Shown piece after piece: positions 4,801-41,121 of a DNA stretch of 64,000 nt. The stretch is from an uncultured Thalassolituus sp. (GTDB taxonomy: Bacteria; Pseudomonadota; Gammaproteobacteria; Pseudomonadales; Oceanobacteraceae): positions 62,001-126,000 of the forward strand of contig NZ_CATMFB010000003.1 in assembly GCF_950066645.1 (NCBI RefSeq), given 5' to 3'. A model generated the notes under the pieces. That model saw only the letters and a program-made list of their open reading frames with translations, had not been told where the DNA came from and made no database searches. A program made the position numbers and the translations under genes. The first letter of the stretch is position 1. Each line of letters opens with the position of its first letter.

Positions 4801-5196
4801 GTGGAAAAGAAGGAAGACAACCAGCCATGCCCGGAGGGCGAGCTTACCCTTAAGCTGATACCCACCCGCGCAGACTGCAATATTCATGGTGACATCAGCG
4901 GCGGCTGGGTAGTCTCACAAATGGATCACGCGGCCGAGTCTGTCGCCAGTCGTCTGGCACAGGGGCGCATCGCCAACGTTGCTCTTGAGTCTGTGGTGTT
5001 TATGTCGCCAATACGCATCGGCGCAGAAGTCTGCATCTATACCAACCTCCTGGAAATTGGCACCTCGTCGATCCGTATGGCAATCGAAGTATGGACACGT
5101 AACCCCCGCGAAGAAATCCGCCGCAAGGTCGTCGACGCCATCTTCGTATATGTCGCCATTGATGGTCAGGGGCGTATCAGGCAGGTGCCGAAGTAA
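4801..5196 (+). CDS. yciA: YciA-type acyl-CoA thioesterase
   Basis: Hotdog-fold enzyme that hydrolyses acyl-CoA to free acid and CoA. The 131-residue length is standard, and the NIHGDISGGW motif at residues 27-36, followed by MDHAAES, matches the YciA active-site helix with its catalytic Asp. It starts with GTG at 4801; upstream the spacer is poor in a Shine-Dalgarno. It follows dctM by 66 bases in the same direction and is closed by a strong terminator, so it may be part of the TRAP operon or independently transcribed. Role: acyl-CoA pool trimming, in cytosol. Confidence 0.88.
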   Translation: MEKKEDNQPCPEGELTLKLIPTRADCNIHGDISGGWVVSQMDHAAESVASRLAQGRIANVALESVVFMSPIRIGAEVCIYTNLLEIGTSSIRMAIEVWTRNPREEIRRKVVDAIFVYVAIDGQGRIRQVPK

Positions 5197-13621: not shown

Positions 13622-14320
13622 TTAAATAGCCAGCAGCTCCTTCGCTTCCTCCGAGTGTTCAAGCTCTTCACCCGTCCCCTGACTCACAACCCGACCCCGC
13701 TCCAGGATAATAAATTCATCCGCCAGCTCTTTGGCAAAGTCCAGATACTGTTCCACCAGAACAATGGCCATTTCGCCGCGATCTCGGAGCAGCTTAATCA
13801 CCCGACCAATGTCTTTAATGATGGACGGCTGAATACCTTCTGTAGGTTCATCCAGAATCAGCATCTTTGGACGTAGTAACAAGGCCCGAGCAATCGCGAG
13901 CTGTTGCTGCTGGCCGCCAGACAGGTCGCCACCACGTCGCTTCAGCATCTTCTGCAGCACAGGAAACAAGGCGTAGACTTCGGGGTCGATAAAGCGCTGC
14001 GCACGAGGCAGGGCCGAGAAAGCCGTCTGAAGGTTTTCTTCAACCGTCAGCTGCGGAAATATATCGCGCCCCTGCGGAACATACGCGATCCCGGCTTTGG
14101 CCCGATCATATGGCGCCATGGCGAGCAGGCTTTTTCCTTCCCAGAGAATATCACCGGACACGGGGGTAAGGTGCCCTGACAGCGACTTCATCAGAGTTGT
14201 CTTACCCACACCATTACGCCCAAGCACACAGGTCACCTTGCCAGGCTCAGCGGTCATTGCCACGTTATAGAGTGCCTGACTGGCACCGTATGCGACGTTC
14301 AGATTATTTACGGTCAACAT
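13622..14320 (-). CDS. urtE: UrtE, urea ABC transporter ATPase
   Basis: One of two ATPases of the urea importer, 232 residues, of the LivF-like branched-chain type. Walker A is GRNGVGKTT, the signature LSGGQQQQLAIARAL, Walker B LILDEPTEGIQPS; the last phrase (EGIQPSI) is typical of UrtE as opposed to LivF. The ATG at 14320 gives MLTVNNLNVAYG and lies one base past the urtD stop; an in-frame ATG 84 bases upstream is inside urtD. Last gene of urtABCDE, ending convergent with ubiK. Confidence 0.94.
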   Translation of the reverse strand: MLTVNNLNVAYGASQALYNVAMTAEPGKVTCVLGRNGVGKTTLMKSLSGHLTPVSGDILWEGKSLLAMAPYDRAKAGIAYVPQGRDIFPQLTVEENLQTAFSALPRAQRFIDPEVYALFPVLQKMLKRRGGDLSGGQQQQLAIARALLLRPKMLILDEPTEGIQPSIIKDIGRVIKLLRDRGEMAIVLVEQYLDFAKELADEFIILERGRVVSQGTGEELEHSEEAKELLAI

Positions 14321-14321
14321 A

Positions 14322-15089
14322 TCAGCGCCCCAGATACACTTCGATAACTTCCTGATTTGCCTTAACAGTTTCAAGGCTCCCTTCGGCCAGCACCCGACCT
14401 TCATGCAGCACGGTCACTTTACAATCGAGAGCTTCGATAAAGTCCATGTCATGCTCGACGACCATCAGTGAATGCTTTTTCGCCAAGCGTTTAAAAAGCT
14501 CGGCGGTCTTCATGGTTTCTTCGTCAGTCATGCCAGCAGCAGGCTCATCAATCAGGAGTAACTCGGGCTCCTGCCCCAGTAACATACCGATCTCCAACCA
14601 TTGCTTCTGACCATGCGACAGACTTCCGGCCTCTTCATGCTGACGATCTTTCAGATCGATCAGGTCGAGAATCTCGTCGATTTTCTCCTGGCGTGCCGGC
14701 GTCAGTTTATGCACCAGAGCCTGCCAGACAGAACGTCCGCCCTTCAGAGACATTTCGATATTTTCGAAGACAGTCAGGCTTTCGATCACACTCGGTTTTT
14801 GAAATTTCCGACCCACCCCCATATTGGCAACCTGAGCTTCGTCATACCGGGTGAGATCTTCTTTATCGTTGAACAGAATCGTGCCGGAGTCTGGTCGGGT
14901 TTTCCCGGTAATAACATCCATCATGGTGGTTTTGCCCGCACCGTTAGGGCCGATAATGGCCCGCATTTCTCCCGGCTCGATAAACAGTGACAGCGAGTTC
15001 AGCGCTTTAAAGCCATCGAAGCTGACACTGACACCGTTCATATAAAGTACGGTCGGATGATCAATATGTTTTGGTGTTGCGATACTCAT
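14322..15089 (-). CDS. urtD: UrtD, urea ABC transporter ATPase
   Basis: Second ATPase of the urea importer, 255 residues, LivG-like. Walker A is GPNGAGKTT, signature LSHGQKQWLEIG (the HGQKQWLE form is typical of UrtD), Walker B LLLIDEPAAGMTDEE. Its start overlaps the urtC stop by four bases and its stop lies one base before urtE, so urtC, urtD and urtE are tightly coupled. Confidence 0.95.
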   Translation of the reverse strand: MSIATPKHIDHPTVLYMNGVSVSFDGFKALNSLSLFIEPGEMRAIIGPNGAGKTTMMDVITGKTRPDSGTILFNDKEDLTRYDEAQVANMGVGRKFQKPSVIESLTVFENIEMSLKGGRSVWQALVHKLTPARQEKIDEILDLIDLKDRQHEEAGSLSHGQKQWLEIGMLLGQEPELLLIDEPAAGMTDEETMKTAELFKRLAKKHSLMVVEHDMDFIEALDCKVTVLHEGRVLAEGSLETVKANQEVIEVYLGR

Positions 15090-16252
15090 ACTTTGCCCTC
15101 CGCAGTCGCACTCTGCCCGCCGCCAGGGCCCCCAGAGGAGCTACGCCGTTTCTCCTGTATCTGGGCCCAGAGCCCAACCACACCTTTCGGCAGATACAGC
15201 GTTGTCAGAACAAACAGGCCGCCCAGCATAAACAACCACAGCTCGGCAAAGGCGCCTGTAAAATAGGTTTTCGCATAGTTCACCAGCACCGCTCCGATCA
15301 CGGCACCATAGAGTGTTCCGCGACCACCAACGGCAACCCAGATAATTATCTCGATGGAATTAATCGGCGCGAACTCTCCCGGATTAATAATCCCGACCTG
15401 CGGCACATACAAAGCACCTGCCACACCGGCAAGCATGGAAGACACAACGAAGACGAAGAGTTTGTACCACTCAACGCGATAGCCCAGAAAACGTGCACGG
15501 GATTCACTGTCGCGGATAGCGACAAGTACCCGCCCCAGTTTCGATGTGACGATAAAACGACTGATGAGGTAGCCGCCGATCAGTGCGATGCCCGAGGCAA
15601 AGAATAACGCCGCACGGGTGGTATCGGCCTGGAGGTCAAAGCCCAGAATGTCTTTAAAGTCGGTCAGGCCGTTGTTGCCACCAAAGCCCATGTCATTGCG
15701 GAAGAAAGCCAGCAACAAGGCGTACGTCAGTGCCTGGGTAATGATCGAGAGATATACCCCGGTGACGCGTGAACGGAATGCCAGAACCCCGAAAACAAAT
15801 GCCAGCAATCCGGGGGCAGCCAGAACCATAATCATGGCGAACCAGAACTGATCGAATCCCTGCCAGTACCACGGCAGCTCGGTCCAGTTCAGGAACACCA
15901 TAAAGTCAGGCAGCTCAGGGTTAGCATACACACCCCGGTCGCCAATCTGGCGCATCAGATACATACCCATGGCATAGCCACCCAGCGCAAAGAAGGCGCC
16001 GTGACCCAGACTGAGAATACCGCAGTAACCCCAGATCAGATCCACCGCGACTGCCAGCAGGGCATAGCAAAGATATTTACCCAACAGAGTCATAGTGAAG
16101 GTCGAGACGTGAAAAAGCGACCCTTCAGGGACCAGCAGGTTACTGAGAGGCACCAACACAGATACCAGTAACAGCACCAGAAGCAGTTTCCGGCCAGCTT
16201 TGTCATTCATGATCAGGCGGGTCAGTGGGCCACCTTTAATTTCCTGTGACAT
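15086..16252 (-). CDS. urtC: UrtC, urea ABC transporter permease
   Basis: LivM-type inner-membrane permease of 388 residues, with about ten hydrophobic segments and the family phrases LSLGHGAFFALGGYAMGMYLM near 82-102 and the EAA-like loop ESRARFLGYRVEWYKLFVF. Length is normal for UrtC. It follows urtB by nine bases. The C-terminus ends in a Gly/Ser-rich tail that is not conserved in function. Confidence 0.94.
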   Translation of the reverse strand: MSQEIKGGPLTRLIMNDKAGRKLLLVLLLVSVLVPLSNLLVPEGSLFHVSTFTMTLLGKYLCYALLAVAVDLIWGYCGILSLGHGAFFALGGYAMGMYLMRQIGDRGVYANPELPDFMVFLNWTELPWYWQGFDQFWFAMIMVLAAPGLLAFVFGVLAFRSRVTGVYLSIITQALTYALLLAFFRNDMGFGGNNGLTDFKDILGFDLQADTTRAALFFASGIALIGGYLISRFIVTSKLGRVLVAIRDSESRARFLGYRVEWYKLFVFVVSSMLAGVAGALYVPQVGIINPGEFAPINSIEIIIWVAVGGRGTLYGAVIGAVLVNYAKTYFTGAFAELWLFMLGGLFVLTTLYLPKGVVGLWAQIQEKRRSSSGGPGGGQSATAEGKV

Positions 16253-16261
16253 AACAGCTCC

Positions 16262-17884
16262 TTAACCCATATCCGCCGCACGCCCCTTGAGCGCGAACAA
16301 TCCACGCGGGCGCTTCTGAATAAACAGAATGATAAATACCAGAACCAGGATCTTAGCGACGACCGCGCCCGCCCAGGGTTCCAGCAGCTTATTCACAACC
16401 CCGAGTGACATGGCACCCACGAGCGTCCCCCACAGATTGCCGACACCACCGAAGACGACCACCATAAAGGAGTCAATGATGTAGGCCTGCCCCATGTTTG
16501 GCCCCACATTAGTGAGCTGAGACAGGGCAACACCTGCGATGCCCGCAATGCCCGACCCGAGACCAAAGGTCAGCGCATCGACCCAACCCGTTCTGATACC
16601 CATCGAGCTGGCCATCGGACGGTTCATGGTGACGGCCCGCATCTGCAGACCAAAAAGCGTGCGCTTCAGAACCAGAGCCAGCAAAGCAAGTACGACCAGA
16701 CTGAAGATAATGATGTAAAGGCGGTTGTACGTAAGCTCGAGAGCAGGGTTAATCATAAAGGTGCCTGCCATCCAGTCGGGCGTTGCCACTTCACGGTTAA
16801 GCGGGCTGAAAATAGAACGTACTGCCTGCTGCAGCACCAGACTGATACCAAACGTGGCCAGCAGAGTCTCTAACGGGCGTCCGTAGAGGTGACGGATCAC
16901 ACCGCGTTCAATCGCAACCCCCACCAGTCCACTGACCAGAAATGCTGCGGGAATAGCGACGGCCAGAGACAGGCCGATATGATCAGGCATCAGCTGCTGA
17001 ACCACATAAGTGGTGTAAGCACCCAGCATAATCATTTCGCCGTGAGCCATATTGATCACACCCATCACCCCGAAGGTAATGGCCAGACCAATCGCCGCCA
17101 GTAACAGTACCGCGCCGAGAGCCAGACCGAAATAGAGGTTTTCGATGACGGCGTTAACGCGCAACAGGTCTTCAATTTTTTCCAGTGCGTCGGTCGCGGC
17201 TTTTACTTCAGATGCTCGTCCGTCAGACTCTGCCGCACGCACAAAGTTAGCCAATGCTCCCCGCACGTCGGGATACAGAGACCCCGCCAGTGCATCAATC
17301 CCGGCAAGACGGGTAGCGCTGTCACCAGATTCCAGGGATTTAATGCCTTGCACCAGCGACAGGATATCTTTTACTTCTGAATTTTTTTCTTCAGCCATCG
17401 CCCGGCTGAGGGTAACGCTGTCAATGTCGTCTGCAGATTTCAACAGATTAACGGCCGCCTGCTTGCGTACTGACGCGACCGGAGAAAAAATCTGAAGCCT
17501 GGCGATACCGGAACGAAGAATCGTACGTAATGAATTATTTACGCTGATTTTTTTAATATCGCGGCTACTCGCAATCTCAATCACTTCGCCATTAAAAAAC
17601 GACGTTATCTTATCTTCGCCTTTGATGACGACAACACGATCGTCTTTGCGGTAGTACAGGTCACCATTCACCATGACCTGCGAAAATTCGAGGGTTTTAG
17701 GGTCGTTAATTTCGACCAGCGCTTCTGTCAGCGCTTTTTTTTCACGAAAGCCGGCATCGATCAGCTGTTGCGCAAGGGCGTGCAGCTCTGTATCGGGTTT
17801 CATGGAATCTGCTGCGGCATGGGCGTTAACTGCACAACACAGAACGGCCAGATACAGCATTACCTGTCGGAATACTGAAAGCAT
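16262..17884 (-). CDS. urtB: UrtB, urea ABC transporter permease with long N-terminal domain
   Basis: LivH-type permease of 540 residues. Residues ~1-24 form a signal peptide (AVLCCAVNAHAAAD), residues ~30-245 a periplasmic HEAT-like region rich in Leu/Ala helices, and ~250-540 the eight-segment permease with INMAHGEMIMLGAYTTYVVQ and FGLGSGIAGIAGV. This long two-part form is usual for UrtB. It is separated from urtA by a hairpin and 73 bases and then runs on into urtC. Confidence 0.94.
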   Translation of the reverse strand: MLSVFRQVMLYLAVLCCAVNAHAAADSMKPDTELHALAQQLIDAGFREKKALTEALVEINDPKTLEFSQVMVNGDLYYRKDDRVVVIKGEDKITSFFNGEVIEIASSRDIKKISVNNSLRTILRSGIARLQIFSPVASVRKQAAVNLLKSADDIDSVTLSRAMAEEKNSEVKDILSLVQGIKSLESGDSATRLAGIDALAGSLYPDVRGALANFVRAAESDGRASEVKAATDALEKIEDLLRVNAVIENLYFGLALGAVLLLAAIGLAITFGVMGVINMAHGEMIMLGAYTTYVVQQLMPDHIGLSLAVAIPAAFLVSGLVGVAIERGVIRHLYGRPLETLLATFGISLVLQQAVRSIFSPLNREVATPDWMAGTFMINPALELTYNRLYIIIFSLVVLALLALVLKRTLFGLQMRAVTMNRPMASSMGIRTGWVDALTFGLGSGIAGIAGVALSQLTNVGPNMGQAYIIDSFMVVVFGGVGNLWGTLVGAMSLGVVNKLLEPWAGAVVAKILVLVFIILFIQKRPRGLFALKGRAADMG

Positions 17885-17922
17885 TATGACATCCGGAATA
17901 GAAAAGTATCAGGGCACGAAAA

Positions 17923-17947
17923 AGGCGGAAGGAGAAGCCTTCCGCCT
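17923..17947 (-). terminator. Hairpin between urtA and urtB
   Basis: AGGCGGAAGG/CCTTCCGCCT, a perfect 10-bp stem with a five-base loop, ten bases after the urtA stop and followed by five Ts on the transcribed strand. Acts probably as a leaky terminator that keeps the binding protein in excess of the membrane and ATPase subunits. Confidence 0.75.
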
Positions 17948-17957
17948 CAGGACGTGA

Positions 17958-19274
17958 TTACTCGCCAGTCGCTACTGCACCGCCACAGGACTTAGTCACT
18001 GTGTTGTAGTTGCCGCAGTTAACCGGAGCCGTCCAGTCAGAGATCAGGTTCTTGCTTTCTGGCAGATAGTCGGTCCATGCATCACCCGGAACTTCCTCAT
18101 CGGTCGCCCAGACGATTTCAAACTGACCGTCTTCCTGAATTTCACCAATCAGCACTGGCTTAGACAGGTGATGGTTTACGTTCATGACCGCAGTACCACC
18201 TGTCAGGTTAGGTACTTCGATGCCGTACATAGCGGTACGTACTTTATCGACCTCTTCAGAGCCTGCTTTTTCAACCGCTTTTGCCCACATATTGAAGCCA
18301 ATATAAGTCGCTTCCATCGGGTCATTGGTCACACGCTTCTCACTGCCAATGTACTTGTGCCATTGCTCGATAAACTCTTCATTCTGATCGCTTTCAGCGC
18401 TCTGGAAGTAGTTCCACGCCGCCAGGTGACCAACGAGAGGCGCAGTATCAAAACCAGACAGTTCTTCTTCACCTACAGAGAAGGCAACCACAGGGATGTC
18501 TTCAGACTTCACCCCCTGGTTTGCGAGTTCTTTGTAGAAAGGAACGTTCGCATCACCGTTAATGGTAGAAACAACCGCAGTTTTCTTACCCGCGCTGCCG
18601 AATTTTTTCACATCAGATACGATCGTCTGCCAGTCGCTGTGACCGAAAGGCGTGTAATTGATCATGATGTCTTTGGCATCAACACCTTTAGACTTGAGGT
18701 AGCTTTCCAGAATTTTGTTGGTAGTACGTGGATACACGTAGTCAGTACCAGCCAGAACAAAGCGCTCTACACCGAGATCGTTGATCAGGTAATCCACCGC
18801 AGGAATGGCCTGCTGGTTAGGCGCTGCACCTGTGTAGAACACATTGTAAGAAGACTCTTCGCCTTCGTACTGTACCGGGTAGAACAGCAGGCCGTTCAGC
18901 TCTTCAACCACCGGGAGTACAGACTTACGGGAAACAGATGTCCAGCAGCCGAAAATCACATCAACGTCTTCTTTTTCCAGAAGCTCACGGGTTTTTTCGG
19001 CGAACAGAGGCCAGTTTGACGCAGGATCAACAACAACCGCTTCCAGTTTCTTACCCAGCAGGCCGCCTTTCTTGTTCTGCTCTTCTACCATCATCAGCAC
19101 GGTATCTTTCAGAGTGGTCTCAGAAATCGCCATCGTGCCGGAAAGGGAGTGCAGAACACCAACCTTGATGGTGTCATCAGCGGCATGTGCCAGGCTTACA
19201 CCTGCTGCCAGTGCAGTCATACCGATAAATTTAGTTACTTTCCCAAGTGCGTTGAGGTCTGTCTTTTTCATCAT
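17958..19274 (-). CDS. urtA: UrtA, urea-binding protein
   Basis: Periplasmic receptor of the urea importer, 438 residues, type I (LivJ-like) fold. The signal peptide ends ALAAGVSLAHA (residue 31). The mature start DDTIKVGVLHSLSGTMAISE and the phrases VIFGCWTSVSRKSVLPV and LLFYPVQYEGEES are characteristic of UrtA/FmdD-type short-chain amide and urea receptors. Two tandem ATGs are available; both follow a good AAAGGAAA ribosome site. It heads the urt operon behind a sigma-54-type promoter with an NtrC-like site. Amide rather than urea binding cannot be excluded from sequence alone. Confidence 0.93.
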   Translation of the reverse strand: MMKKTDLNALGKVTKFIGMTALAAGVSLAHAADDTIKVGVLHSLSGTMAISETTLKDTVLMMVEEQNKKGGLLGKKLEAVVVDPASNWPLFAEKTRELLEKEDVDVIFGCWTSVSRKSVLPVVEELNGLLFYPVQYEGEESSYNVFYTGAAPNQQAIPAVDYLINDLGVERFVLAGTDYVYPRTTNKILESYLKSKGVDAKDIMINYTPFGHSDWQTIVSDVKKFGSAGKKTAVVSTINGDANVPFYKELANQGVKSEDIPVVAFSVGEEELSGFDTAPLVGHLAAWNYFQSAESDQNEEFIEQWHKYIGSEKRVTNDPMEATYIGFNMWAKAVEKAGSEEVDKVRTAMYGIEVPNLTGGTAVMNVNHHLSKPVLIGEIQEDGQFEIVWATDEEVPGDAWTDYLPESKNLISDWTAPVNCGNYNTVTKSCGGAVATGE

Positions 19275-19352
19275 TATTTCCTTTTATCTTCTTTTATGAA
19301 GTTCCGGATTTATATTGGCTCTCTGGCCAGGTATCGAACTCGCAGATAAGTG

Positions 19353-19369
19353 AGCAATTGGCATACCAG
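19353..19369 (-). promoter_or_regulatory. Sigma-54-type promoter for urtA
   Basis: On the minus strand CTGGTATGCCAATTGCT has the invariant GG and GC separated by ten bases and a perfect TTGCT -12 box; the -24 box (TGGTAT) has C-to-T changes. Start would be near 19342, ~68 bases before the urtA ATG. The NtrC-like site ~90 bases further upstream strengthens the call. Confidence 0.72.
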
Positions 19370-19456
19370 TTTTAAGCGCTATTTTCAGACCAAAAACCCG
19401 CTTTTCCGGCCATAAGAAAGCCAATCCCTGCATTTTTGAAGAGATAGAAAAAGGTG

Positions 19457-19473
19457 TGCACCACAATGGTTCA
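19457..19473. promoter_or_regulatory. NtrC-like enhancer site upstream of urtA
   Basis: TGCACC-ACAAT-GGTTCA differs from the NtrC palindrome (TGCACC, five bases, GGTGCA) at one of twelve arm positions. It lies between the GntR gene stop and the sigma-54-type element, at a typical enhancer distance. Confidence 0.7.
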
Positions 19474-19484
19474 GATGGATTTAA

Positions 19485-20204
19485 TTACGTCACTTTTGGG
19501 GGCATATCCATATTTTTATCTTCCGCATAACGCTTTCTTGCTTCCTGAATTCTGTGCAGTGTGATTTCCCTGACTGTGTTTTTACTGATTTCGATATGTT
19601 TCTTCAGATGATTAACGACTTTGTCCCGCCTTCCATGGCAGATATCGTCCAGTATTTCACTGTGTTCCTTGTACGTCGCTTCGATCCGACCTTTCTGAGT
19701 AAAGTCCAGACGACGAATAATCCTGAGGCGCTCACAGACGCTGCGATGGATCGCTGCCATTTCCTGATTTTGCCCGCACTCCAGCAGGCCAAAATGAAAT
19801 TCTTCATCCAGGAAAGCAACCTCGCTGCTGTCATGGCTGCGCTGCTCTGGCCGGCAGCACCAGATTGTCATTAATCCGGCCAACCGACCCTCTCTGTCTT
19901 TGTCTTCACACAAACGCCTGACGGCTTCGGCTTCCAGTAAAATCCGTACGTCGTACAGATCTTCAAAATATTGAAAATCGAATGGCCTCACCTGCCAGCC
20001 ACTGCGAAAGTGCACCTGCACATATCCATCACGCTCCAGGCGATACAGGGCTTCGCGCACGGGAGTCCGGGAAGCGGACATGCGTCGCGCAATTTCACTT
20101 TCGCTGAACCTGTCACCCGGCAACAGCTGAAAATCAAAAATATCGAGTTTAAGTTGCTGATATATCCGCTCGGCAATATTGGTCGTACGCGCTGCGGACG
20201 TCAT
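19485..20204 (-). CDS. GntR-family regulator (FCD subfamily)
   Basis: A 239-residue regulator with an N-terminal winged helix (residues ~8-75; FSESEIARRMSASRTPVREALYRLERDGYV is the recognition part) and a C-terminal FCD ligand domain (~80-220; YEDLYDVRILLEAEAVRRLC-like start, HHL-type metal ligands not clearly resolved). It follows atzF by six bases on the same strand, so it is cotranscribed with allophanate hydrolase. A perfect palindrome of the GntR type at the predicted atzF transcription start suggests autoregulation of the atzF-gntR pair. Ligand unknown; allophanate or a urea/guanidine-related compound is plausible. Confidence 0.88.
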   Translation of the reverse strand: MTSAARTTNIAERIYQQLKLDIFDFQLLPGDRFSESEIARRMSASRTPVREALYRLERDGYVQVHFRSGWQVRPFDFQYFEDLYDVRILLEAEAVRRLCEDKDREGRLAGLMTIWCCRPEQRSHDSSEVAFLDEEFHFGLLECGQNQEMAAIHRSVCERLRIIRRLDFTQKGRIEATYKEHSEILDDICHGRRDKVVNHLKKHIEISKNTVREITLHRIQEARKRYAEDKNMDMPPKVT

Positions 20205-20210
20205 ATCAGC

Positions 20211-22031
20211 TCAGCCCTGCGCCTTAAGATGCTGAATATAAGCGCGCCAGCCGCCAAAGTGGCTGATATCTGTTGCGCTTGATACCGCCTCCGGCTCGCA
20301 GATAAACCCTTTCACCTTGCGACCATCCACCAGCTCAAGCGTACCAATACCCAAAGGCTGTGGTATTTCCTCAACAAATGCACCGAAGGCTGACACGTCC
20401 ATCCGCCACAGCTCGACAATCAGCGAGTGTCCCACCGTTTCAGAAAGAGCGTCGTCGCTGAGTCTGACCAGACCAGGCTTAGGGGGAACCGTATTCGCCA
20501 GTGCATACAGTTGGTATTTTCTGGCCGTCAGTGTCTGCTCCAGCAGTACCGCGTGACGACTGGTCAGCTGATGGTTCAGGGGCATACCGGTCAGATGCGC
20601 GCCCACGACTGCAACCACCACCGAGGTGTCGCTTTTCCTGCCGAGCATGACCGGTGCCTCTGGCAATGCCAGATGAGCCTGCCAGTGCGCAGCAAACTGT
20701 GACAACGACAGATCGCTCCAGGCCGGTGCGATCACGGTAATGCCGAACGGCAGACCATCAGTGCGCATGTCTGCAGGCAACGCAATCGCTGCGAGATCTG
20801 CGAGATTCACAAAATTGGTGTAGGTCCCAAGCTGGCTGTTGACCTCTACCGGCGCAGCGTCGACCTCGGCTGTTAATGGAAAACGCGGTGTCGTCGGCAC
20901 CAGAAACGCGTCCACCGTGCTGAACATGGCATGAATTTCTGACTGCAGAGCCTTGCGTCGGTACTCAGCCTTAAACGCCGACACCGCCGTGGGCTCAGCG
21001 CCTGAATGAATAATCGCTTTCACCACAGGGTTAATGCCCGGGTGATCCTGCTGGAGAAATTCACCGACAGCGGCGTAGCGCTCTGAAACCCAGGGGCCCT
21101 GATACAGAAGTTCGGCCAGTTCGGTCATCGGTGAGAAGTCGATCTGCTTTACCTGAAACCCCGCATCCTCTGCGCGCTCACACGCTTTCTGAAACGCAGA
21201 TTCCTGCACCTCATCACCGAACCAGGAAGGCGCAGCAGGAATGCCGAGAGTGCGGATTCTTTTATTCGGAACCATAGTACGACTGCGGGAATATGCATCC
21301 GCAGGATCAGGCTGTGCACACACCTGCAGAACCACATCAGCGTCTGCAGCATTCAGTGCAAAAACAGAAACGCAATCCAGACTGCGACAGGCTGGCACAA
21401 CGCCAGTGGTGCTGATCGCGCCCACCGATGCCTTCATACCGACGATATGATTGAAACCGGCCGGCACCCGGCCTGATCCGGCGGTGTCGGTCCCCAGAGA
21501 AAAAGCCACCTGCCCCATAGCCACTGCCGTGGCTGACCCAGAGCTGGAGCCCCCGGAAATGTAGTCAGCATTAAACGCATTAGCGACAGCACCATACGGG
21601 GAACGGGTTCCTACCAGGCCTGTCGCAAACTGATCGAGATTTGTTTTCCCCAGTACGATGGCGCCGGCCTCTCGCAGAAGGCGTACGGCAGTGGCATCAC
21701 TATCGGGCTGATAACTGTATTCAGGGCAGGCAGCGGTGGTCGCCATCCCCCGCACATCAATATTGTCTTTTACCGCAAAGGGAACACCGTACAGAGGCAG
21801 CTCCGTGCCCTCCTGCTTCAGCTCAGACAGCCGTGTAAGCTGATCACGCAGAGCAACGTCACTGACAAGTGAAATCCAGGCACTGCCATGGCGGAGTACG
21901 CCGTCGCTGAATTCATCAAGCTCTATCTGCCGGCGCAGCTGTTCGAGCAATTGCTCAGGGCTAGCCCCGTTTCGATAGGCGCGCGACCAGTCTCTGATGT
22001 TCCATCCAATCGTGTCTGTGTCTGCTGTCAT
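20211..22031 (-). CDS. atzF: Allophanate hydrolase (AtzF type)
   Basis: Hydrolyses allophanate to carbon dioxide and ammonia, the last step of urea carboxylase, cyanuric-acid and guanidine pathways. The 606-residue product is an amidase-signature enzyme: the Ser-cisSer-Lys triad is K88 (PFAVKDN), S162 (GGSSSGS) and S186 (TAGSGRVP), with the family spacing of 24 between the serines. Residues ~470-606 form the C-terminal domain found in AtzF, which handles the first hydrolysis product. No urea carboxylase, biuret hydrolase or urease gene lies in the window. Behind a sigma-54-type element and a GntR-type operator. Confidence 0.92.
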   Translation of the reverse strand: MTADTDTIGWNIRDWSRAYRNGASPEQLLEQLRRQIELDEFSDGVLRHGSAWISLVSDVALRDQLTRLSELKQEGTELPLYGVPFAVKDNIDVRGMATTAACPEYSYQPDSDATAVRLLREAGAIVLGKTNLDQFATGLVGTRSPYGAVANAFNADYISGGSSSGSATAVAMGQVAFSLGTDTAGSGRVPAGFNHIVGMKASVGAISTTGVVPACRSLDCVSVFALNAADADVVLQVCAQPDPADAYSRSRTMVPNKRIRTLGIPAAPSWFGDEVQESAFQKACERAEDAGFQVKQIDFSPMTELAELLYQGPWVSERYAAVGEFLQQDHPGINPVVKAIIHSGAEPTAVSAFKAEYRRKALQSEIHAMFSTVDAFLVPTTPRFPLTAEVDAAPVEVNSQLGTYTNFVNLADLAAIALPADMRTDGLPFGITVIAPAWSDLSLSQFAAHWQAHLALPEAPVMLGRKSDTSVVVAVVGAHLTGMPLNHQLTSRHAVLLEQTLTARKYQLYALANTVPPKPGLVRLSDDALSETVGHSLIVELWRMDVSAFGAFVEEIPQPLGIGTLELVDGRKVKGFICEPEAVSSATDISHFGGWRAYIQHLKAQG

Positions 22032-22921: not shown

Positions 22922-25675
22922 TTAACGGTCTTCGTAACGCTGGTGTTTGAAGAACACACCGGAATCACCGAATACCGAGGTAGTGAACTCAGAGTTCATT
23001 ACCAGCTCACCGATCTTAACGGCGTCAGCGCGACGCTCGTTCTGCAGACGCTGCTGCTTAGACGCCCAGATAGAAGACTTGATCTCCATATCGGTCGCGT
23101 ACACGTCATACAGTTTAGTGCCTGCAGGCAGGCTCAGCAGGTCGTCACGGAAGTCATGTTCGCCTTCGGCAAACATACCTGAGACTTCAGCACTTGGTAC
23201 GAAGTACACCTGAGTCGGAGACACAGGGTTAGCTTCTGTAGTACCGTCAGACTGAGTTTCGGACATCGCGTTGGCAACTACGAGGGTTGGCTTGCTGGTA
23301 ACGAATGAGAACAGCAGGCTGGAACCCAGAGTATCGTTGCTTTCGAGGCTGACATAGTTAGACAGCTCGTTCGCAAAGATGTCGTAGTTATCTTCCTGGC
23401 CAGACAGTGTGTAAAGCGCAGAAATGTTTTCTGAAGGCTTACCGTCGATCAGAGTTTTCCAGGCGAAACCAGGCGCGAAACCCCGGTCAGCAGGATCACC
23501 AGTCACAGACAGACGCAGCAGACCACACTCATTACCTTCGAAGACACCTGTGTATGGGTGGCTGCCGGTAGAGTTAAAGCTGACTTTGGCCATTGCACCG
23601 TGAGGGTGAATCGGCTTGGAGTGACCCGCAGGGGCTACGTCACCAACGTACTTCACTTTGTCAGAAATTACGCTGCTGATCAGACCACCGATATCGACTT
23701 CAGGAATCGCTGGAAGCTCACCGGCTTCGTATTCAGTACGCTTAACACCGTTGGTCCACAGCAGAGACTGCTTGTCACAGGCTGCCCAGTTATCGTAGTC
23801 AGCCGGGATGTTCAGACCCCATGGTTTGAAGGCGTTATCCACACCCGCCAGAGACAGCTCAAGGCTTGGGAAGTGACGCTTGAGGATGTCGACCATAGTG
23901 GTGTTTTCAACCCAGTCGTAACCTTCTGGCGTGTACACTTCCGGCGTGTAGTATTCAGTGAAGAAACGGTCAGTAATGATGCGACGTGATGCGTTCATGA
24001 TGAAGATCTGGAATGCAGTCTCACCAAAGCCGAAGCCTTCCGGACGAACGGTTTCAGCCAGCTGACCAACCAGAGCATCAATCTTCTCAACATCGTTGTC
24101 GTACAGACGACGCATTTCTGCAACCAGCTCAGCATCATCAGTCAGATCAGTGAAGTCATTGATCGGGTTCAGACCAATCTGGCGACGGAACTCGTTATAA
24201 CGCGGCACACCACGCTCACGGTCACGTACAACATCGATGGTTGCCATATCCAGCAGACCACGGCCCGGTACCCACAGGTTACGCATAAACTCTGGGTAGT
24301 TGCGCAGAGTCAGAGCACCCGGGTTAGTCACACCGAAGGAGTACCACAGGCGATCAGCGCCCTGATCATCCAGAATGTCTTCAGCATTCGCATCACGGGT
24401 ATCGGTCAGAGGAATAGACTCAGCCACCACGTTCGAGCCCACGTCATACACGTCAACCGTGTCACGCAGCAGTGGGTGCATACGGTATACCGCCACAAAC
24501 TCTTCAGTCAGAGTGAAAGGAACACCCGCGTTATCTGAGTTACGCGCACCTGCCAGACCAGTCAGAGCCCACTCAAGCGCAGCGCCGCTGTCCAGAGCTT
24601 CTTCCATTTTAGGATCAAAGCCCAGGATGGTACGTACCCAGGAATCAGATTTCGCAAGATCTTCTGCCAGCTTATCGAATTCGCCAGCGTACTTGTCACG
24701 CGCTTCCTGATTACCTGCCAGACCCCACCAGTTCGCGTACATCGCACGCTCAGTCACTGGGTTAGCGATAATGGCTGGCGTCCACTCCACAGTGTGGATT
24801 TTCGCCATCAGGGCCGCGTTGATCAGACGTGCTTTATCGAACAGCCACTGATCGTCTTTGTCTGGGTAGTTAGCCGCCAGCATGTTCGCGATGGTGTTGT
24901 GTTCGTTCACAAACAGCTGATGCAGCATGCTCAGACCGAGCCACCAGTTGTCGTTAAAACCAGTCTGTGGCAGACCAGAGAAAAACTCGCGTGGCAGTGA
25001 GCCATCGGAGTTTACCGTCAGGCGACCGCCCTGGAACTCACGCAGTGAGTTCGTGGTTTCAATGTTGCTGCCGTAAATCTGGGAACCATCCCACCAGTGA
25101 GTGTTTTCGTTCAGATATGCGTCCGGCAGACCTGCTTCATCTTCCGCAGCAATACGGGTCGGATCAGGCAGGGTACGACGGATTGAGATAGTCCCGGTAC
25201 CACGGGCATCGCCTTCTGGCAGCTCAACTTCGATGTAGTCATCAGTTGAACCATCGCCATGGCTGAACCAGTCGTGGGTCATAAACTGAATCCATGCAGC
25301 AGCGGCGAAGTTCAGAGTGGTTGCAGGCTTGAACTCGTCACGTGCCATCAGTGAGTTACTGATATCGCGTGGATTCGGGGAAAGTAAGGTGTCAGTTTCA
25401 CCGTGTGCAGCATCGAGTGCTACGTTACGGCCAAAGCGGCGGTTTACAGAACCTTCCGCAGGGTTTTCCAGAATGTTACAGGTACCGTCTTCAAGACGGG
25501 CTGTCAGACTGCGTTCGTCACATTCGATATCTGCGTTGTATTCGTCCCAACGTTCAAAATCAAACAGGTTGTTTTTAAACAGTTCGTTACGTTCAACAGC
25601 AAGCGTCAGCAGACCGGCGGTGATTCCCAGTGTTCCGAATTTCACCAGGCCGGGCCAGGTTACCCAGATACTCAT
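22922..25675 (-). CDS. Fatty-acid alpha-dioxygenase-like haem protein with catalase-like C-terminal region
   Basis: A 917-residue member of the animal-peroxidase/cyclooxygenase superfamily, closest by eye to fatty-acid alpha-dioxygenases, which add O2 to the 2-carbon of fatty acids. Seen: FMTHDWFSH with the distal haem His134; WWDGSQIYG at 194-202; LFVNEHNTIANML; INAALMAKIHTVEWT at 285-299; FTLTEEFVAVYRMHPLL with candidate radical Tyr397 and proximal His400; SRRIITDRFFTEYY with Arg570, a candidate for the fatty-acid carboxylate. The dioxygenase part ends near 625; plant enzymes stop at ~620-640 residues. The remaining ~290 residues contain IHPHGAMAKVSF, RLSVTGDPADRGFAPGFAWK and DNYDIFANE, whose His690-Asn763 spacing (73) equals the distal His-Asn spacing of catalases; no proximal haem Tyr motif is seen. 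Hydrophobic residues 8-26 may attach it to the membrane. Strong ribosome site (GAAGGAGA). Monocistronic. Confidence 0.82.
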   Translation of the reverse strand: MSIWVTWPGLVKFGTLGITAGLLTLAVERNELFKNNLFDFERWDEYNADIECDERSLTARLEDGTCNILENPAEGSVNRRFGRNVALDAAHGETDTLLSPNPRDISNSLMARDEFKPATTLNFAAAAWIQFMTHDWFSHGDGSTDDYIEVELPEGDARGTGTISIRRTLPDPTRIAAEDEAGLPDAYLNENTHWWDGSQIYGSNIETTNSLREFQGGRLTVNSDGSLPREFFSGLPQTGFNDNWWLGLSMLHQLFVNEHNTIANMLAANYPDKDDQWLFDKARLINAALMAKIHTVEWTPAIIANPVTERAMYANWWGLAGNQEARDKYAGEFDKLAEDLAKSDSWVRTILGFDPKMEEALDSGAALEWALTGLAGARNSDNAGVPFTLTEEFVAVYRMHPLLRDTVDVYDVGSNVVAESIPLTDTRDANAEDILDDQGADRLWYSFGVTNPGALTLRNYPEFMRNLWVPGRGLLDMATIDVVRDRERGVPRYNEFRRQIGLNPINDFTDLTDDAELVAEMRRLYDNDVEKIDALVGQLAETVRPEGFGFGETAFQIFIMNASRRIITDRFFTEYYTPEVYTPEGYDWVENTTMVDILKRHFPSLELSLAGVDNAFKPWGLNIPADYDNWAACDKQSLLWTNGVKRTEYEAGELPAIPEVDIGGLISSVISDKVKYVGDVAPAGHSKPIHPHGAMAKVSFNSTGSHPYTGVFEGNECGLLRLSVTGDPADRGFAPGFAWKTLIDGKPSENISALYTLSGQEDNYDIFANELSNYVSLESNDTLGSSLLFSFVTSKPTLVVANAMSETQSDGTTEANPVSPTQVYFVPSAEVSGMFAEGEHDFRDDLLSLPAGTKLYDVYATDMEIKSSIWASKQQRLQNERRADAVKIGELVMNSEFTTSVFGDSGVFFKHQRYEDR

Positions 25676-25797
25676 AGTGTCTCCTTCATTTTTGTTGTTT
25701 TAAGTCTTTCCAGACCGCTAAGGAGTGAAACATATGTCTATTACAAAAAAGATGTCATTTCGGGAAAGGAGTGACAAACCCGGCCCGATCCTGCCAA

Positions 25798-25994: not shown

Positions 25995-26486
25995 TCAGGC
26001 GGTAATAACACGCAGGAAAGTCTCCTGTAAGACCCGTACGTCATTGGCCGCACGGTGGCGACTGAGGCTGAACTCCTGCCACAGATCTTTTTTCGTGCCT
26101 TGCCAGTTTTCCATCTGGTCTGGGGTCAGCAGTTTATTGATGGTCTCAATACGAAAGCGCTGAACCAGCTCCGCTTCTTCAAACAGGCGACCGATCCAGG
26201 AACTGTCAAAGCTCCAGGCGTCGGAATAGAGAGTTTTGCCACGTAACTCCTCGTTGAGAAACAAGGCAACGTCGCGCACGCTCAGACCCTCTTCACGCAA
26301 CTGATCACGGGAAATGCCGTGGATGGCTTCAGCCTCATCACTCCAGTGAGTCCAGCTATCGGCGGGCAGGATCAGACAGCTCTTAACCTCACGGTCTTCA
26401 AGCGCGAATCCTATTTCAATCGGATAGCTGCCGCGGCCAAACCCCGAGGCTTCTACGTCGATAATGGCCGGAACTACTCTACTCAC
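25995..26486 (-). CDS. DnaQ-like 3'-5' exonuclease (DEDDh)
   Basis: A small ribonuclease/deoxyribonuclease-fold protein of 163 residues from the chosen GTG at 26486. The first acidic pair is in AIIDVEASGFG, a Ser-Phe-Asp block (SDAWSFDSSWIGRLF) supplies the next Asp, and LSRHRAANDVRVL gives the catalytic His and last Asp, completing the DEDDh set. An ATG at 26570 is in frame but its 28-residue extension looks non-coding and has no ribosome site, whereas GAGAAG lies ten bases before the GTG. Third gene of a likely ygiF-gspE-exonuclease unit. Substrate unknown. Confidence 0.75.
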   Translation of the reverse strand: MSRVVPAIIDVEASGFGRGSYPIEIGFALEDREVKSCLILPADSWTHWSDEAEAIHGISRDQLREEGLSVRDVALFLNEELRGKTLYSDAWSFDSSWIGRLFEEAELVQRFRIETINKLLTPDQMENWQGTKKDLWQEFSLSRHRAANDVRVLQETFLRVITA

Positions 26487-26579
26487 AGGTACAACTTCTC
26501 TTTTTAAAGGCGGCGACTCTTGTGAAGTCTGACCGCAGACTGACTGACCAGCGGGGTCAAGGCCCGCCATTCTGGCAAG

Positions 26580-28361
26580 TCAGGAATGATTATTCAATTT
26601 TGTTGCCGGAGCGACGCGCATAACTTCTGCAATGGTTGTCATTCCAGCAGCGACTTTATGCGCACCGCTGAGACGCAGACTGTGCATCCCTTCTTTCATC
26701 GCCGCCTGCCTGAGCTTCTGATGATCTGTGTTTTCTGTAATCAGTACATCAACGGTTTCTGACATGGGCATTACTTCATAAATGCCCATACGTCCAAGAT
26801 AGCCAGTGCCCCGACACTCGAGGCAACCCTTGGGGCCGTAGATATGTGCAGGCGTTTTTACCAGCCAGGGCGCCGTCAGCTGCTTCCAGGCTTTTTCATC
26901 CACCGGTTGCTGTGTCTTGCAGTGAGGACAGAGCGTACGCACCAGACGCTGCGCCATGACGCCGATCACACTGGAGCGAATCAGGTACGCAGGCAAGCCC
27001 AGCTCCAGTAAACGGGTAAACGCCGACGGCGCATCATTGGTATGCAGTGTAGACAATACCAGGTGCCCCGTCAGTGCAGCCTGCACCGCAATCTCTGCAG
27101 TCTCCAGATCACGCACCTCACCCACCATAATGATATCCGGATCCTGACGCAGCAGGGCCCGGACACCCGTCGCAAACGACAGATCAATCGCCGGATTTAC
27201 CTGCATCTGGTTAAACGCAGGCTCGACCATTTCAATCGGATCTTCGATGGTAGAAACATTCACTTCCGGTGTCGCCAGCTGGCGCAGGGTCGAATATAGC
27301 GTGGTGGTTTTACCTGACCCTGTCGGGCCCGTCACGAAAATAATGCCGTGGTTGTTACTGGTCATTTCTGCCCAGCGGCGACGGTCTTCTTTGGCAAATC
27401 CCATTTCAGAGAAACTGCGCATCAGCACCTGAGGGTCAAAGACCCGCATCACCATTTTCTCGCCAAACGCAGTGGGCAAGGTCGATAGTCGCAGTTCAAC
27501 TTCATCGCCTTCGGGCGTTTTCGTTTTCAGGCGGCTGTCCTGAGGCTTACGCTTTTCTGCGATGTTCATCCGGCCAAGTGACTTTACCCGCGCAATTACG
27601 GCCATACCGACTTCAGCAGGCAATTCATAGACATTGTGCAGTACCCCATCAATGCGGAAGCGCACGTGGGTAATTTCGCGGCGGGGTTCAAGGTGAATAT
27701 CACTGGCGCGCTGATCGAACGCGTATTGCAGCAGCCAGTCAACAATATTGACGATATGTTCGTCATTGGCGTCGGGGGCTTTGGCTTTGCCCAGCTCCAG
27801 CATGGATTCCAGATTCTGAACCGAGCTGATACCTGAGTGATCTTTACGGGCGCGGGACACCGAGTTGGCGAGCTGATAGAACTCAACGCGATAGCGGCGG
27901 ATATCTTCCGGGCTACTGAGCACCCGGGTCACACGACGACGGGTGACATGTTCCAGATCGGACACCCAGGCAGTGACGTGTGGCTCGGAGCAGGCAACCG
28001 TGACCTCATCGACACCGACCTTTACGACCAGTATCTGATGGCGCTCTGAGAAGGCGTAGGACATAACATCGGTGACCGCCGACACATTGATTTCCAGCGG
28101 ATCAATCGCATAGCTCTGCATGCCCTCGCGTTCGGCAAGCCAATCCACCAGCGCGTGCTCTGTCAGCACCTTACTGCCGGTCGCGCGTGAATCGCGATAC
28201 CCCTGGCGGGCGAGAACGGTCAGAGCATGCAGGCCAGTCTCGTCGGCCTTACGGCGGATGGTCTGAGCCAGGTGGTGATCGTCATCGTTCAGCAGGCCGT
28301 CACGGCGAAGCTCTTCTACCAGTGTAGTGAGCGTTAACGTTCGTTCGGCGGTAGCCTGCAT
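26580..28361 (-). CDS. GspE/PulE-type secretion ATPase, orphan
   Basis: A 593-residue type II secretion / type IV pilus assembly ATPase. The N-terminal ~150 residues are a MshEN-like domain (YAIDPLEINVSAVTDVMSYAF). The C-terminal motor has Walker A GPTGSGKTTTLYS, Asp box STIEDPIE, Walker B RQDPDIIMVGEVRD, His box GHLVLSTLHTND and a zinc tetracysteine formed by CPHC and CLEC. All catalytic features are intact. No gspF, gspG or other secretion gene is nearby, so its machine must be encoded elsewhere or it is a housekeeping PulE-like ATPase. It follows ygiF by four bases. Confidence 0.9.
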   Translation of the reverse strand: MQATAERTLTLTTLVEELRRDGLLNDDDHHLAQTIRRKADETGLHALTVLARQGYRDSRATGSKVLTEHALVDWLAEREGMQSYAIDPLEINVSAVTDVMSYAFSERHQILVVKVGVDEVTVACSEPHVTAWVSDLEHVTRRRVTRVLSSPEDIRRYRVEFYQLANSVSRARKDHSGISSVQNLESMLELGKAKAPDANDEHIVNIVDWLLQYAFDQRASDIHLEPRREITHVRFRIDGVLHNVYELPAEVGMAVIARVKSLGRMNIAEKRKPQDSRLKTKTPEGDEVELRLSTLPTAFGEKMVMRVFDPQVLMRSFSEMGFAKEDRRRWAEMTSNNHGIIFVTGPTGSGKTTTLYSTLRQLATPEVNVSTIEDPIEMVEPAFNQMQVNPAIDLSFATGVRALLRQDPDIIMVGEVRDLETAEIAVQAALTGHLVLSTLHTNDAPSAFTRLLELGLPAYLIRSSVIGVMAQRLVRTLCPHCKTQQPVDEKAWKQLTAPWLVKTPAHIYGPKGCLECRGTGYLGRMGIYEVMPMSETVDVLITENTDHQKLRQAAMKEGMHSLRLSGAHKVAAGMTTIAEVMRVAPATKLNNHS

Positions 28362-37731: not shown

Positions 37732-37819
37732 CTCGTCACTGCTGCCAATGCGTACGGAGCACATTCGGGTACCATCGCGCCCCTGAATGTGAACCCACTA
37801 ACCGGAAGCTTTGTTGTTT

Positions 37820-38335
37820 ATGCTGTCCCAGATCATCACGTCCATCATCAAACGTAACGAACCGGCAACCATTGCTCCACTCGGCACCAGTGTTGTCTCA
37901 GGTCGGGTACTGCCACACCAGATAGACTACAACCTGCACATGAACAATGCTAAGTACCTGAACATACTTGAGCGTTCCCGCTGGGTACTGTTCCGGGAGA
38001 ATGGCTGGTTCCGTCATTTCTTCAATAAGCGCCTGAACCTGGTGGTCGCATCACTGGAAATCACCTTTATCCGCGAGCTGAATCTTTTTTCAAAATACGA
38101 AGTGCATACCCGCATCATGAGCTGGGATGAAAAATATGTGTATTTTGAGCACCGCATCATGGTGAAGGGAAAACTCTGCGGCCACGCTCTGGTGAAGATG
38201 GCAGGCATCCGCAAAGGCAAGCGTGCTTTCTGTGCGGAAATCTGTGACACCGTTGGTATCGATTATCAGGATGCCACCGCCTATACAGTGATCGACCACT
38301 GGGCGGCGATGACACAGGCAAAACGCGATATCTGA
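37820..38335 (+). CDS. Thioesterase-superfamily (hotdog) protein
   Basis: A 171-residue hotdog protein of the 4HBT-like group. The phrase QIDYNLHMNNAKYLNILERSRW is the active-site region of the acyl-CoA thioesterase / THEM6-like family (the usual Asp is in the IDYN part). RIMSWDEKYVYFEHRIMV follows as the central strand. ATG at 37820 is preferred over two TTG codons nine bases upstream. Substrate unknown. Convergent with the DUF1254 gene. Confidence 0.8.
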   Translation: MLSQIITSIIKRNEPATIAPLGTSVVSGRVLPHQIDYNLHMNNAKYLNILERSRWVLFRENGWFRHFFNKRLNLVVASLEITFIRELNLFSKYEVHTRIMSWDEKYVYFEHRIMVKGKLCGHALVKMAGIRKGKRAFCAEICDTVGIDYQDATAYTVIDHWAAMTQAKRDI

Positions 38336-38375: not shown

Positions 38376-39788
38376 TTATTCCCGGATAAGTTCCGGTATT
38401 TCCCATTCATTTTTCAGAATCTCATCCCTCGGATCGTAGAATCTCAGCGTCAGCTGAAAATCCCCCGCGGGCACGGGCAACCAGTTGCTCAGCGGTATCC
38501 CCTGAGGCGGAAGATGCGACAGGATAACGGTAACCTTGCCATCGTCTTCGACAAGACCCGTATTCGTTCCGACCGCATAACGCTCTATCCCCAGGCCTGC
38601 AGCCATCTCATTGACCGCCAGAAAGCCATTGTCCTGATAGACCGTCATGGACCAGAACGCGTCCACCGGTGGCAGATCATCCGCATTCATTGTGAAGGTG
38701 TAGGTGTTCTGACCATTGAGGCGCATGCGGTTCGCATCACGCATCGTGTTCTGATAGGTGGCGTATTCATTTTTATTCGCTCCGAAGCCAACCTGCGCGA
38801 CCACAGCACGAATAAAGTACCGACGACCATAATCCCCCAGAGGGACCGCGTCGGGATCAGGACCCCAGCCCTTCAGGCCAAGCATACTGATGGCGCCATC
38901 TAGGCTCGCCTGGGCCATGGCCGTCCCGATATCGAGCTGTGTATTCTCGAGTCTGTTACGCCTTGGCTCCTGACCGCGAGCATCAGCAATCAAGCCGGCA
39001 GCCTGTAACTGACTGACCATCCAGCGATCTTCAGCCGGGGGCGGATTATCCTGCATCAGCTGGGACAGACGCTGGAAAAACTCATCCCCTGAAAGGTCTT
39101 TCACAACCTCAATCGGAGGTGTGCGCTCGTTGTCACCCTTACAATTGATCTCAGCAAACGGTGGCGGTGAAGCCCGCCGTGTACTCAGAGTAAACTGATC
39201 CTGAATCGCATGAACTGCCGACAGGTCTTCACCCTCGAGTATTTCGGTACGTCCGATAATCCACACCAGATCGGTCGGTGAATCAATCCGCTGGTAGCCA
39301 CGGGGAACACGCCCCCGCCAGCCCGGGCCGGTAATAAAGTAGTGCCCTTCTTCTGCTCCATGACTCTGAGTACCCACCCCTGCAAAGTTATTCGACCAGG
39401 CATCCACTAATGCCATAAGAATATACCGGTCAGAAACAGCGGGCATATCGAGCAGCACCGGCCCGCTGGAGAGATCGAGCATTGCCGAGGAATACAGGGT
39501 ATCGACATTCGGGCGGACAACGGCTTTAAAGCGTTCGTCCGGTATTTCATACACGTGCTTGAAGGTATTTATATCCGCTCCCAGACTGCACGAGCGTTCC
39601 GGCCCGGTCATGCCGTCGAGGGTTTCACCCATTAATACGATGGGAAATCCATAGACGTATCCCATTGCTGCACTCGTCGCCAGCGACGAGGCTTTGACCG
39701 TAACAGGCAATACCAGCAGAAGCAGGCAACCCATCGCTATTCCAGAGAGGGGTCTCTGCAGACTCCTCAGACTCAGTAACCTTTCCAT
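38376..39788 (-). CDS. Exported DUF1254/DUF1214 protein
   Basis: A 470-residue secreted protein of unknown function. The signal peptide (SGIAMGCLLLLVLPVTVKAS) is followed by the DUF1254 pattern YVYGFPIVLMGET and RPNVDTLYSSAMLDLSSGPVLLDMP, then by the DUF1214 pattern (DAFWSMTVYQDNGFL, LPVPAGDFQLTLRFYDP) near the C-terminus. Such proteins are common, often in several copies, in environmental proteobacteria without a clear role. Start at 39788 with a good AAAGGAT ribosome site. Divergent from an AraC-type regulator that may control it. Confidence 0.85.
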   Translation of the reverse strand: MERLLSLRSLQRPLSGIAMGCLLLLVLPVTVKASSLATSAAMGYVYGFPIVLMGETLDGMTGPERSCSLGADINTFKHVYEIPDERFKAVVRPNVDTLYSSAMLDLSSGPVLLDMPAVSDRYILMALVDAWSNNFAGVGTQSHGAEEGHYFITGPGWRGRVPRGYQRIDSPTDLVWIIGRTEILEGEDLSAVHAIQDQFTLSTRRASPPPFAEINCKGDNERTPPIEVVKDLSGDEFFQRLSQLMQDNPPPAEDRWMVSQLQAAGLIADARGQEPRRNRLENTQLDIGTAMAQASLDGAISMLGLKGWGPDPDAVPLGDYGRRYFIRAVVAQVGFGANKNEYATYQNTMRDANRMRLNGQNTYTFTMNADDLPPVDAFWSMTVYQDNGFLAVNEMAAGLGIERYAVGTNTGLVEDDGKVTVILSHLPPQGIPLSNWLPVPAGDFQLTLRFYDPRDEILKNEWEIPELIRE

Positions 39789-39986
39789 ATTGTTATCCTT
39801 TTTATTTGGGATGCACGACAACGCCGTGCTGATCAACAGGCTAGGTGAGAGCGTTCTGCGAAGTTATTACCATTTGAGACAGACACAGGAGTCATTGGCG
39901 AACCACGATTATATTTTTGTAACATTGGATTTCAGCCGTGATAACGGACAGGCACAATTCTAAGTAAATCTGAGACGGACAAGGAC

Positions 39987-41012: not shown

Positions 41013-41121
41013 CCCTCTGGCCTGATATGACGGGGATTACATTTGATTATTTCCTGTACGAAACACTATGTTCTGCTAGACTGCAATGCGTTTGTCATAC
41101 TCGCCCAGCGAAGGAAGGCCC

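Follow-up and report, generated by a model that had tools for sequence, protein, structure and literature searches.

Why should a fatty-acid alpha-dioxygenase (alpha-DOX) of an uncultured Thalassolituus sp. be followed, in the same polypeptide, by nearly three hundred further residues that match no Pfam family, and what would such a protein do? The gene lies in a stretch of 64,000 nucleotides, contig NZ_CATMFB010000003.1 from position 62,001 to 126,000, which is here called the window. The original prediction, made from the letters of the DNA, described the open reading frame at 22922-25675 as an alpha-DOX-like haem enzyme. That frame and all of the motifs listed for it are present: FMTHDW with H134, WWDGSQIYG, IHTVEWT, FVAVYRMHPLL with Y397 and H400, and DRFF with R570. 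A C-terminal catalase-fold domain and paired cysteines went unmentioned. We propose, being about half convinced of it, that the protein is an extracytoplasmic, membrane-anchored fatty-acid alpha-DOX fused to a domain of the catalase superfamily, and that it acts in two steps. The gene and its protein are laid out as follows.

22922..25675, minus strand: alpha-DOX/catalase-fold fusion gene, 917 residues, ATG start (open reading frame and translation)
25681..25686, minus strand: Shine-Dalgarno-like AAGGAG, 5 bases ahead of the ATG at 25675 (read from the sequence)
25574..25675, minus strand: residues 1-34, hydrophobic N-terminal segment, a membrane helix or possible signal anchor (hydropathy, alignment)
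23816..25624, minus strand: residues 18-620, alpha-DOX domain of the animal haem peroxidase superfamily (Pfam PF03098, phmmer match to rice and Arabidopsis alpha-DOX, tree)
22925..23776, minus strand: residues 634-917, C-terminal catalase-fold domain (C-domain), apparently without the proximal-Tyr helix (AF2, Foldseek, VIA-align, profile-profile match)

The ribosome-binding site AAGGAG is judged good, and the window's genome holds one match to the fusion protein. The match to the plant enzymes stops at residue 620, and the extension beyond the alpha-DOX domain is about 295 residues long. Chance read-through as the origin of this extension was considered and rejected, since the frame is single and continuous and the extension is kept in 21 of 21 rows of the family alignment, all full-length and with the window protein among them. 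An NCBIfam scan of the whole 917-residue protein gave nothing informative. A structure model of the whole protein was poor, with a pLDDT of 48.7.

What, then, is the first domain? Pfam names only An_peroxidase in the 917-residue protein (E 2.1e-107), and this by itself would suit an ordinary animal-type peroxidase without dioxygenase activity. We give that explanation hardly any credence in view of the search scores, the channel residues and the tree. In a sequence search of the PDB, rice alpha-DOX is the best match (355 bits, E 9e-105), followed by Arabidopsis alpha-DOX at 315 bits; a cyanobacterial peroxidase deposited as lactoperoxidase scores 107 bits, and the prostaglandin synthases at most 48. 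Identity to the rice enzyme is 39% (214 of 543 aligned positions). Of the 13 residues listed for the rice fatty-acid channel in the excerpt of PMC8720084, 12 are identical in the window protein and only M325 differs, with T308 in its place; the set that handles the carboxylate and alpha-carbon, rice H311/T316/R559, is identical throughout.

Genome contigs were scanned with a domain profile, and the best 80 of the 165 relatives found form our locus set. Residue and cysteine counts are given for 77 proteins, namely the window protein and those of 76 of the 80 loci (a W-[VA]-[TAS]-W-P start with more than 880 residues after it). The catalytic residues of the first domain are invariant among them.

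25274..25276, minus strand: H134, distal haem His (rice H157), by alignment; 77/77
24476..24487, minus strand: Y397-R-M-H400, radical Tyr (rice Y379) and proximal haem His (rice H382), by alignment; each 77/77
23981..23983, minus strand: R565, carboxylate-binding Arg (rice R559), by alignment; 77/77

The key arginine had been given as R570; it is R565 that pairs with rice R559, while R570 of DRFF aligns with rice R564. Placement inside the peroxidases in a tree had been set beforehand as one of two refuting outcomes, and it did not occur. In a tree of 22 rows, 20 alpha-DOX rows, plant and bacterial and with the window protein included, split from the two peroxidases with support of 100/100. 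The branch of fused proteins has support of 85/77, and the branching order among the alpha-DOXs is partly unresolved. The tree has no rows for cyclooxygenase, linoleate diol synthase or 10S-dioxygenase. The scores, the rice residue alignment and the tree together bear out the earlier assignment, and the first domain is very probably a fatty-acid alpha-DOX. The earlier suggestion of 2-hydroperoxy fatty acids as the likely product follows from membership of the family and is kept as such. The claim that these enzymes are rarely described in bacteria is dated: the excerpt of PMC8720084 reports alpha-DOX sequences from bacteria of five phyla and describes two cyanobacterial enzymes that are active, so that the DOX half of the fusion belongs to a known kind. 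Those enzymes, CalDOX and LepDOX, are bacterial alpha-DOXs too, with H311/T316/R559 reported there as conserved.

Oxygenation might occur at a carbon other than C2, for example at C10, the site used by the cyanobacterial 10S-dioxygenase, which shows that a bacterial enzyme of the superfamily can differ in regiospecificity (PMC13049297, excerpt). The 12 identical channel residues, which include the H311/T316/R559 set, argue against this, as does the grouping with alpha-DOX in a tree that holds no 10S-dioxygenase row, and we regard it as very improbable. The first step of the reaction, strongly supported by homology, would accordingly run as in alpha-DOX: the haem of the first domain would turn Tyr397 into a radical, this would abstract the C2 hydrogen from a fatty acid gripped by H294, T299 and R565, and addition of O2 would give the (2R)-hydroperoxy acid.

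In the second domain, residues 634-917, Pfam found no family at E up to 10, PF00199 included, and a PDB sequence search with the C-domain gave nothing credible, the best match (E 0.55, a T-cell-receptor chain) being taken as chance. The AF2 model of the same residues is a catalase-superfamily beta-barrel with a pLDDT of 90.3 and a pTM of 0.90. The same fold was returned by Foldseek, by VIA-align and by a profile-profile match with controls, and we consider the catalase fold practically certain. The top two Foldseek entries are 3dy5, a coral protein, and 3e4w.

Conserved residues were counted in a 50-row alignment made up of 43 non-redundant proteins of 79 loci, the window protein and six distant rows (L106, which contains X, was omitted); it takes in relatives of 17-30% identity. 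H690 is found in 49 rows, R721 in 50, S723 in 50 and H911 in 48. The lone exception at H690 is a Gln in L122, the row of 17% identity. In the profile alignment, H690, R721 and S723 line up with the catalase distal His and R-x-S motif. In mammalian catalase the three are H75, the distal His itself; R112, the Arg of the haem propionates; and S114, a Ser next to that His. If the VIA ranges are matched gap-free from their first residues, H690 coincides with the distal His of each catalase compared: residue 75 in the human enzyme, 74 in the bovine, 54 in that of Proteus and 56 in that of Helicobacter.

23606..23608, minus strand: H690, counterpart of the catalase distal His (profile alignment, VIA range register); 77/77 fused proteins
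22943..22945, minus strand: H911 in the terminal FFKHQR, candidate substitute haem ligand (hypothesis); 48/50 rows of the alignment, 73/77 fused proteins

Several observations weigh against the two-step proposal. The last residue of the model (284) falls on residue 355 of human catalase, as judged by the VIA range, and the proximal Tyr of that enzyme is Tyr358. In the other VIA entries, too, the last residue falls three before the proximal Tyr. A profile alignment forced to full length, whose end has low confidence, agrees that the domain stops before this Tyr. The modelled C-domain thus appears to end about three residues short of the proximal Tyr, so that ordinary haem ligation is unlikely and the domain may be inactive. 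In addition, no clear equivalent of the distal Asn is retained, position 755 (an estimate) being Tyr in 42 of the 50 rows, and the Foldseek overlay on 3e4w is loose, with a TM score of 0.39 and a root-mean-square deviation of 10.5.

In a different account, the C-domain is a haem-free, dead catalase scaffold whose sole role is lipid binding, the pairing of two chains or docking at the membrane, while the alpha-DOX works alone and its product passes to the aldehyde spontaneously. The chain's seeming end ahead of the proximal Tyr suits this account. So does the spontaneous decay of the alpha-DOX 2-hydroperoxide (PMC9305512, as far as its excerpt goes), and other bacterial alpha-DOXs occur without a C-domain: among 24 plasmid records, only one matches at least 80% of the window protein in one place. 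The C-domain alone was seen in three plasmid records. The near-invariance of H690, R721, S723 and H911 would be needless for a pure scaffold. We place the probability of the dead scaffold a little below even.

In the two-step proposal, the catalase-fold domain would take the hydroperoxide and either reduce or rearrange it, or merely remove peroxide. The products could be a 2-hydroxy acid, a 2-oxo acid or, if CO2 is lost, an aldehyde one carbon shorter. An action of the C-domain on the hydroperoxide seems roughly an even call. A bolder idea concerns H911, the last strongly conserved His (F-x-H), which stands seven residues from the C-terminus of the window protein. In the forced profile alignment, where confidence is low at the end, it lies within the segment after the last strand, and in catalase this segment runs along the proximal side. 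The C-domain might then be a haem enzyme in its own right, the second in the chain and from a new branch of the catalases, with H911 replacing the lost proximal Tyr as ligand, and one exported polypeptide would both make and convert 2-hydroperoxy fatty acids; we consider this improbable.

Joining of alpha-DOX to a catalase-type domain is not restricted to one end of the protein. In Rhizobium, Phyllobacterium and a gammaproteobacterium (L136), alpha-DOX is fused to an N-terminal domain that Pfam names catalase.

L030 2873-5701: N-terminal catalase + alpha-DOX fusion
L031 2765-5614: N-terminal catalase + alpha-DOX fusion
L136 1024-3981: N-terminal catalase + alpha-DOX fusion

Catalase-type domains have thus become attached to alpha-DOX at either end, and it is chiefly this recurrence that suggests an action of the partner on the hydroperoxide. 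As separate observations, a cytochrome c gene adjoins the L030 fusion, a patatin-like gene lies near the L031 fusion, and in L140 1-2490 a catalase-related domain forms the N-terminus of a far longer frame that runs off the locus. In Calothrix PCC 6303, alpha-DOX and a C-domain homologue are encoded apart on the same strand, and a transposase gene separates them. The plasmid segment L027 2938-10071 of this strain carries, on one strand, alpha-DOX, a short hypothetical gene, the transposase, the C-domain homologue, a GMC oxidoreductase and a patatin-like phospholipase, which looks like an oxylipin gene run. Pfam found no family in six C-domain relatives encoded by separate genes (P0002, P0012, L033, L187, L188 and L189).

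Known systems offer partial parallels. The plant alpha-DOXs (rice 4kvj, Arabidopsis 4hhr) align over about residues 18-620 and have the same haem His pair, radical Tyr and carboxylate set, but the plant chains stop where the C-domain of the window protein starts, and the plant rows of the alignment lack Cys where C52 and C66 stand. Coral allene oxide synthase-8R-lipoxygenase (3dy5) is likewise a fusion of a catalase-type domain and a fatty-acid oxygenase, in that case a lipoxygenase. Both 3dy5 and the 33-kDa catalase-related protein 3e4w retain the proximal Tyr. For Nostoc, the excerpt of PMC13049297, which refers to Brash 2014, describes a catalase-related hydroperoxide lyase beside the 10S-dioxygenase, so that there too a superfamily dioxygenase passes its product to a catalase-related partner; the Nostoc partner is a separate gene and the regiospecificity differs, whereas the partner in the window protein is fused and apparently truncated. 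By this analogy the fusion would be the alpha-oxidation counterpart of the known pairs of fatty-acid oxygenase and catalase-related protein. N- and C-terminal extensions were removed before the alpha-DOX tree of PMC8720084 was built, according to its excerpt. No description of an alpha-DOX/catalase-fold fusion was found in the titles or abstract openings of the open-licence papers listed; as far as our literature searches go, a fused catalase-fold domain without evident proximal Tyr, together with probable export, is undescribed.

Where would the protein act? The cysteines bear on this question.

25478..25522, minus strand: C52 + C66, predicted disulfide 1; both Cys in 77/77
23525..23779, minus strand: C633 + C717, predicted disulfide 2; both in 20/77, neither in 57/77, one alone in 0/77

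Cysteines beyond these four occur only in L101, which has four in insert columns; they are taken as a frame error, since the L101 frame overruns the usual end. Complete pairing with joint loss looks like the pattern expected of disulfides, and obligate pairs would place the protein outside the cytoplasm. A separate-gene C-domain relative in Pseudomonas veronii retains the C633/C717 pair. A cytoplasmic fusion protein, its Cys pairs forming a metal site or a redox switch, would fit an N-terminus that is a short hydrophobic stretch (best 19-residue hydropathy 1.6) without a clear signal peptidase site. It would also fit the cysteines of 16 exported GspD proteins, which hold 0-10 with odd numbers common (three in 5/16, five in 2/16), so that export alone does not enforce pairing. 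Against export, too, Calothrix alpha-DOX has three cysteines, and the Calothrix C-domain homologue has neither Cys nor a signal-like N-terminus. A cytoplasmic location accords poorly with C633 and C717 being kept or lost jointly in 77/77 and with the absence, L101 aside, of other Cys from proteins of about 917 residues, when MalT-type neighbours have 7 to 20 (the ten commonest counts, 41 of 54 proteins) and 24 GspE neighbours have 5-10. We think it unlikely. The fusion protein is probably exported, to judge from these sequence patterns, and residues 1-34 may have a part in this; L25 and R29 of that segment correspond in the alignment to rice channel residues L53 and R57. By eye, lipoprotein- or signal-like N-termini are seen in several separate-gene C-domain relatives, that of P. 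veronii included; the loci are L034 (4869-5849), L033, L122, L187, L188, L189 and L191. L122, L188 and L189 share an extra Cys pair, with one member near the distal-His position and the other near the C-terminus.

The fusion is widespread among the 80 loci. The motif IHT[VI][ED]WT is in the same frame as the C-domain in 76; L106 and L107, on contigs whose proteins stand in the 21-row alignment, have IHTTEWT; and L041 and L105 have a short frame in which the alpha-DOX motif was not found. Record names include Thalassolituus, Oleispira, Alcanivorax, Marinobacter, Pseudomonas, Moraxellaceae and Teredinibacter, and a lone 'Pedobacter' bin is probably a binning error. One scan for viral relatives of the fusion protein gave none (six candidate stretches, 0 relatives). 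Diverged alpha-DOX/C-domain copies are L021, L022 and L107, from Oleispira bins in which a second copy is present as well (G024, G025); L021 and L022 end in QQH instead of HQR, and L107 has QQ as far as it was matched.

Directly upstream, within 1.4 kb, a MalT-type protein is encoded in 54 of the 80 loci, on the same strand in 48 of them, and two further loci have such a gene about 3 kb downstream. MalT type here means AAA and LuxR-type DNA-binding domains, found by Pfam in two representatives and extended to the others by blastp clustering. At least one gene of a type II secretion cluster is in the flanks of 35 of the 80 loci (Pfam confirmed a single protein each of T2SSE, secretin, T2SSC, T2SSF and T2SSG; H and J were assigned by eye); since 28 of these 35 records are labelled Pseudomonas, the neighbourhood partly reflects shared descent. 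No MalT-type gene stands beside the window copy, upstream of which are a gene for a T2SSE-type ATPase (26580-28361) and an unnamed gene (25995-26570).

The original prediction had also placed a desaturase and two thioesterases nearby. The genes exist by Pfam; a genomic link with the alpha-DOX gene is not supported, as they are 12-18 kb distant and separated from it by other genes.

41086-42267: fatty-acid desaturase gene (Pfam)
4801-5196 and 37811-38335: thioesterase-fold genes (Pfam)

A gene for a DUF1254/DUF1214 protein (38376-39836) adjoins a thioesterase-fold gene and is about 1.3 kb from the desaturase gene. Downstream of the alpha-DOX gene, window positions 13622-22031 hold urea-type ABC transporter genes, a GntR-like regulator (by eye) and an allophanate hydrolase gene (Pfam Amidase and AH_C).

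A gammaproteobacterial precedent for oxylipin synthesis outside the cytoplasm is the Pseudomonas aeruginosa diol synthase system, which is periplasmic in the excerpt of PMC5155153. Bacterial alpha-DOXs are under development as aldehyde-making catalysts, and a branch of the Pseudomonadales carries with its alpha-DOX a conserved, unnamed catalase-fold domain in a protein that looks exported. The P. aeruginosa diol synthases belong to another family, that of dihaem enzymes. Whether or not the C-domain is active, the fusion makes alpha-oxidation by bacteria beyond the cytoplasm directly testable, perhaps as an extracellular signal like the oxylipins of P. aeruginosa. If the C-domain is dead, it would be a natural experiment on why a catalase barrel is retained without a Tyr-ligated haem. 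If it is active, it would bring a new partner chemistry for fatty-acid 2-hydroperoxides; and were an H911-ligated haem to prove true, the protein would be a complete machine for making oxylipins by alpha-oxidation, placed at the cell envelope of Pseudomonadales, oil degraders among them.
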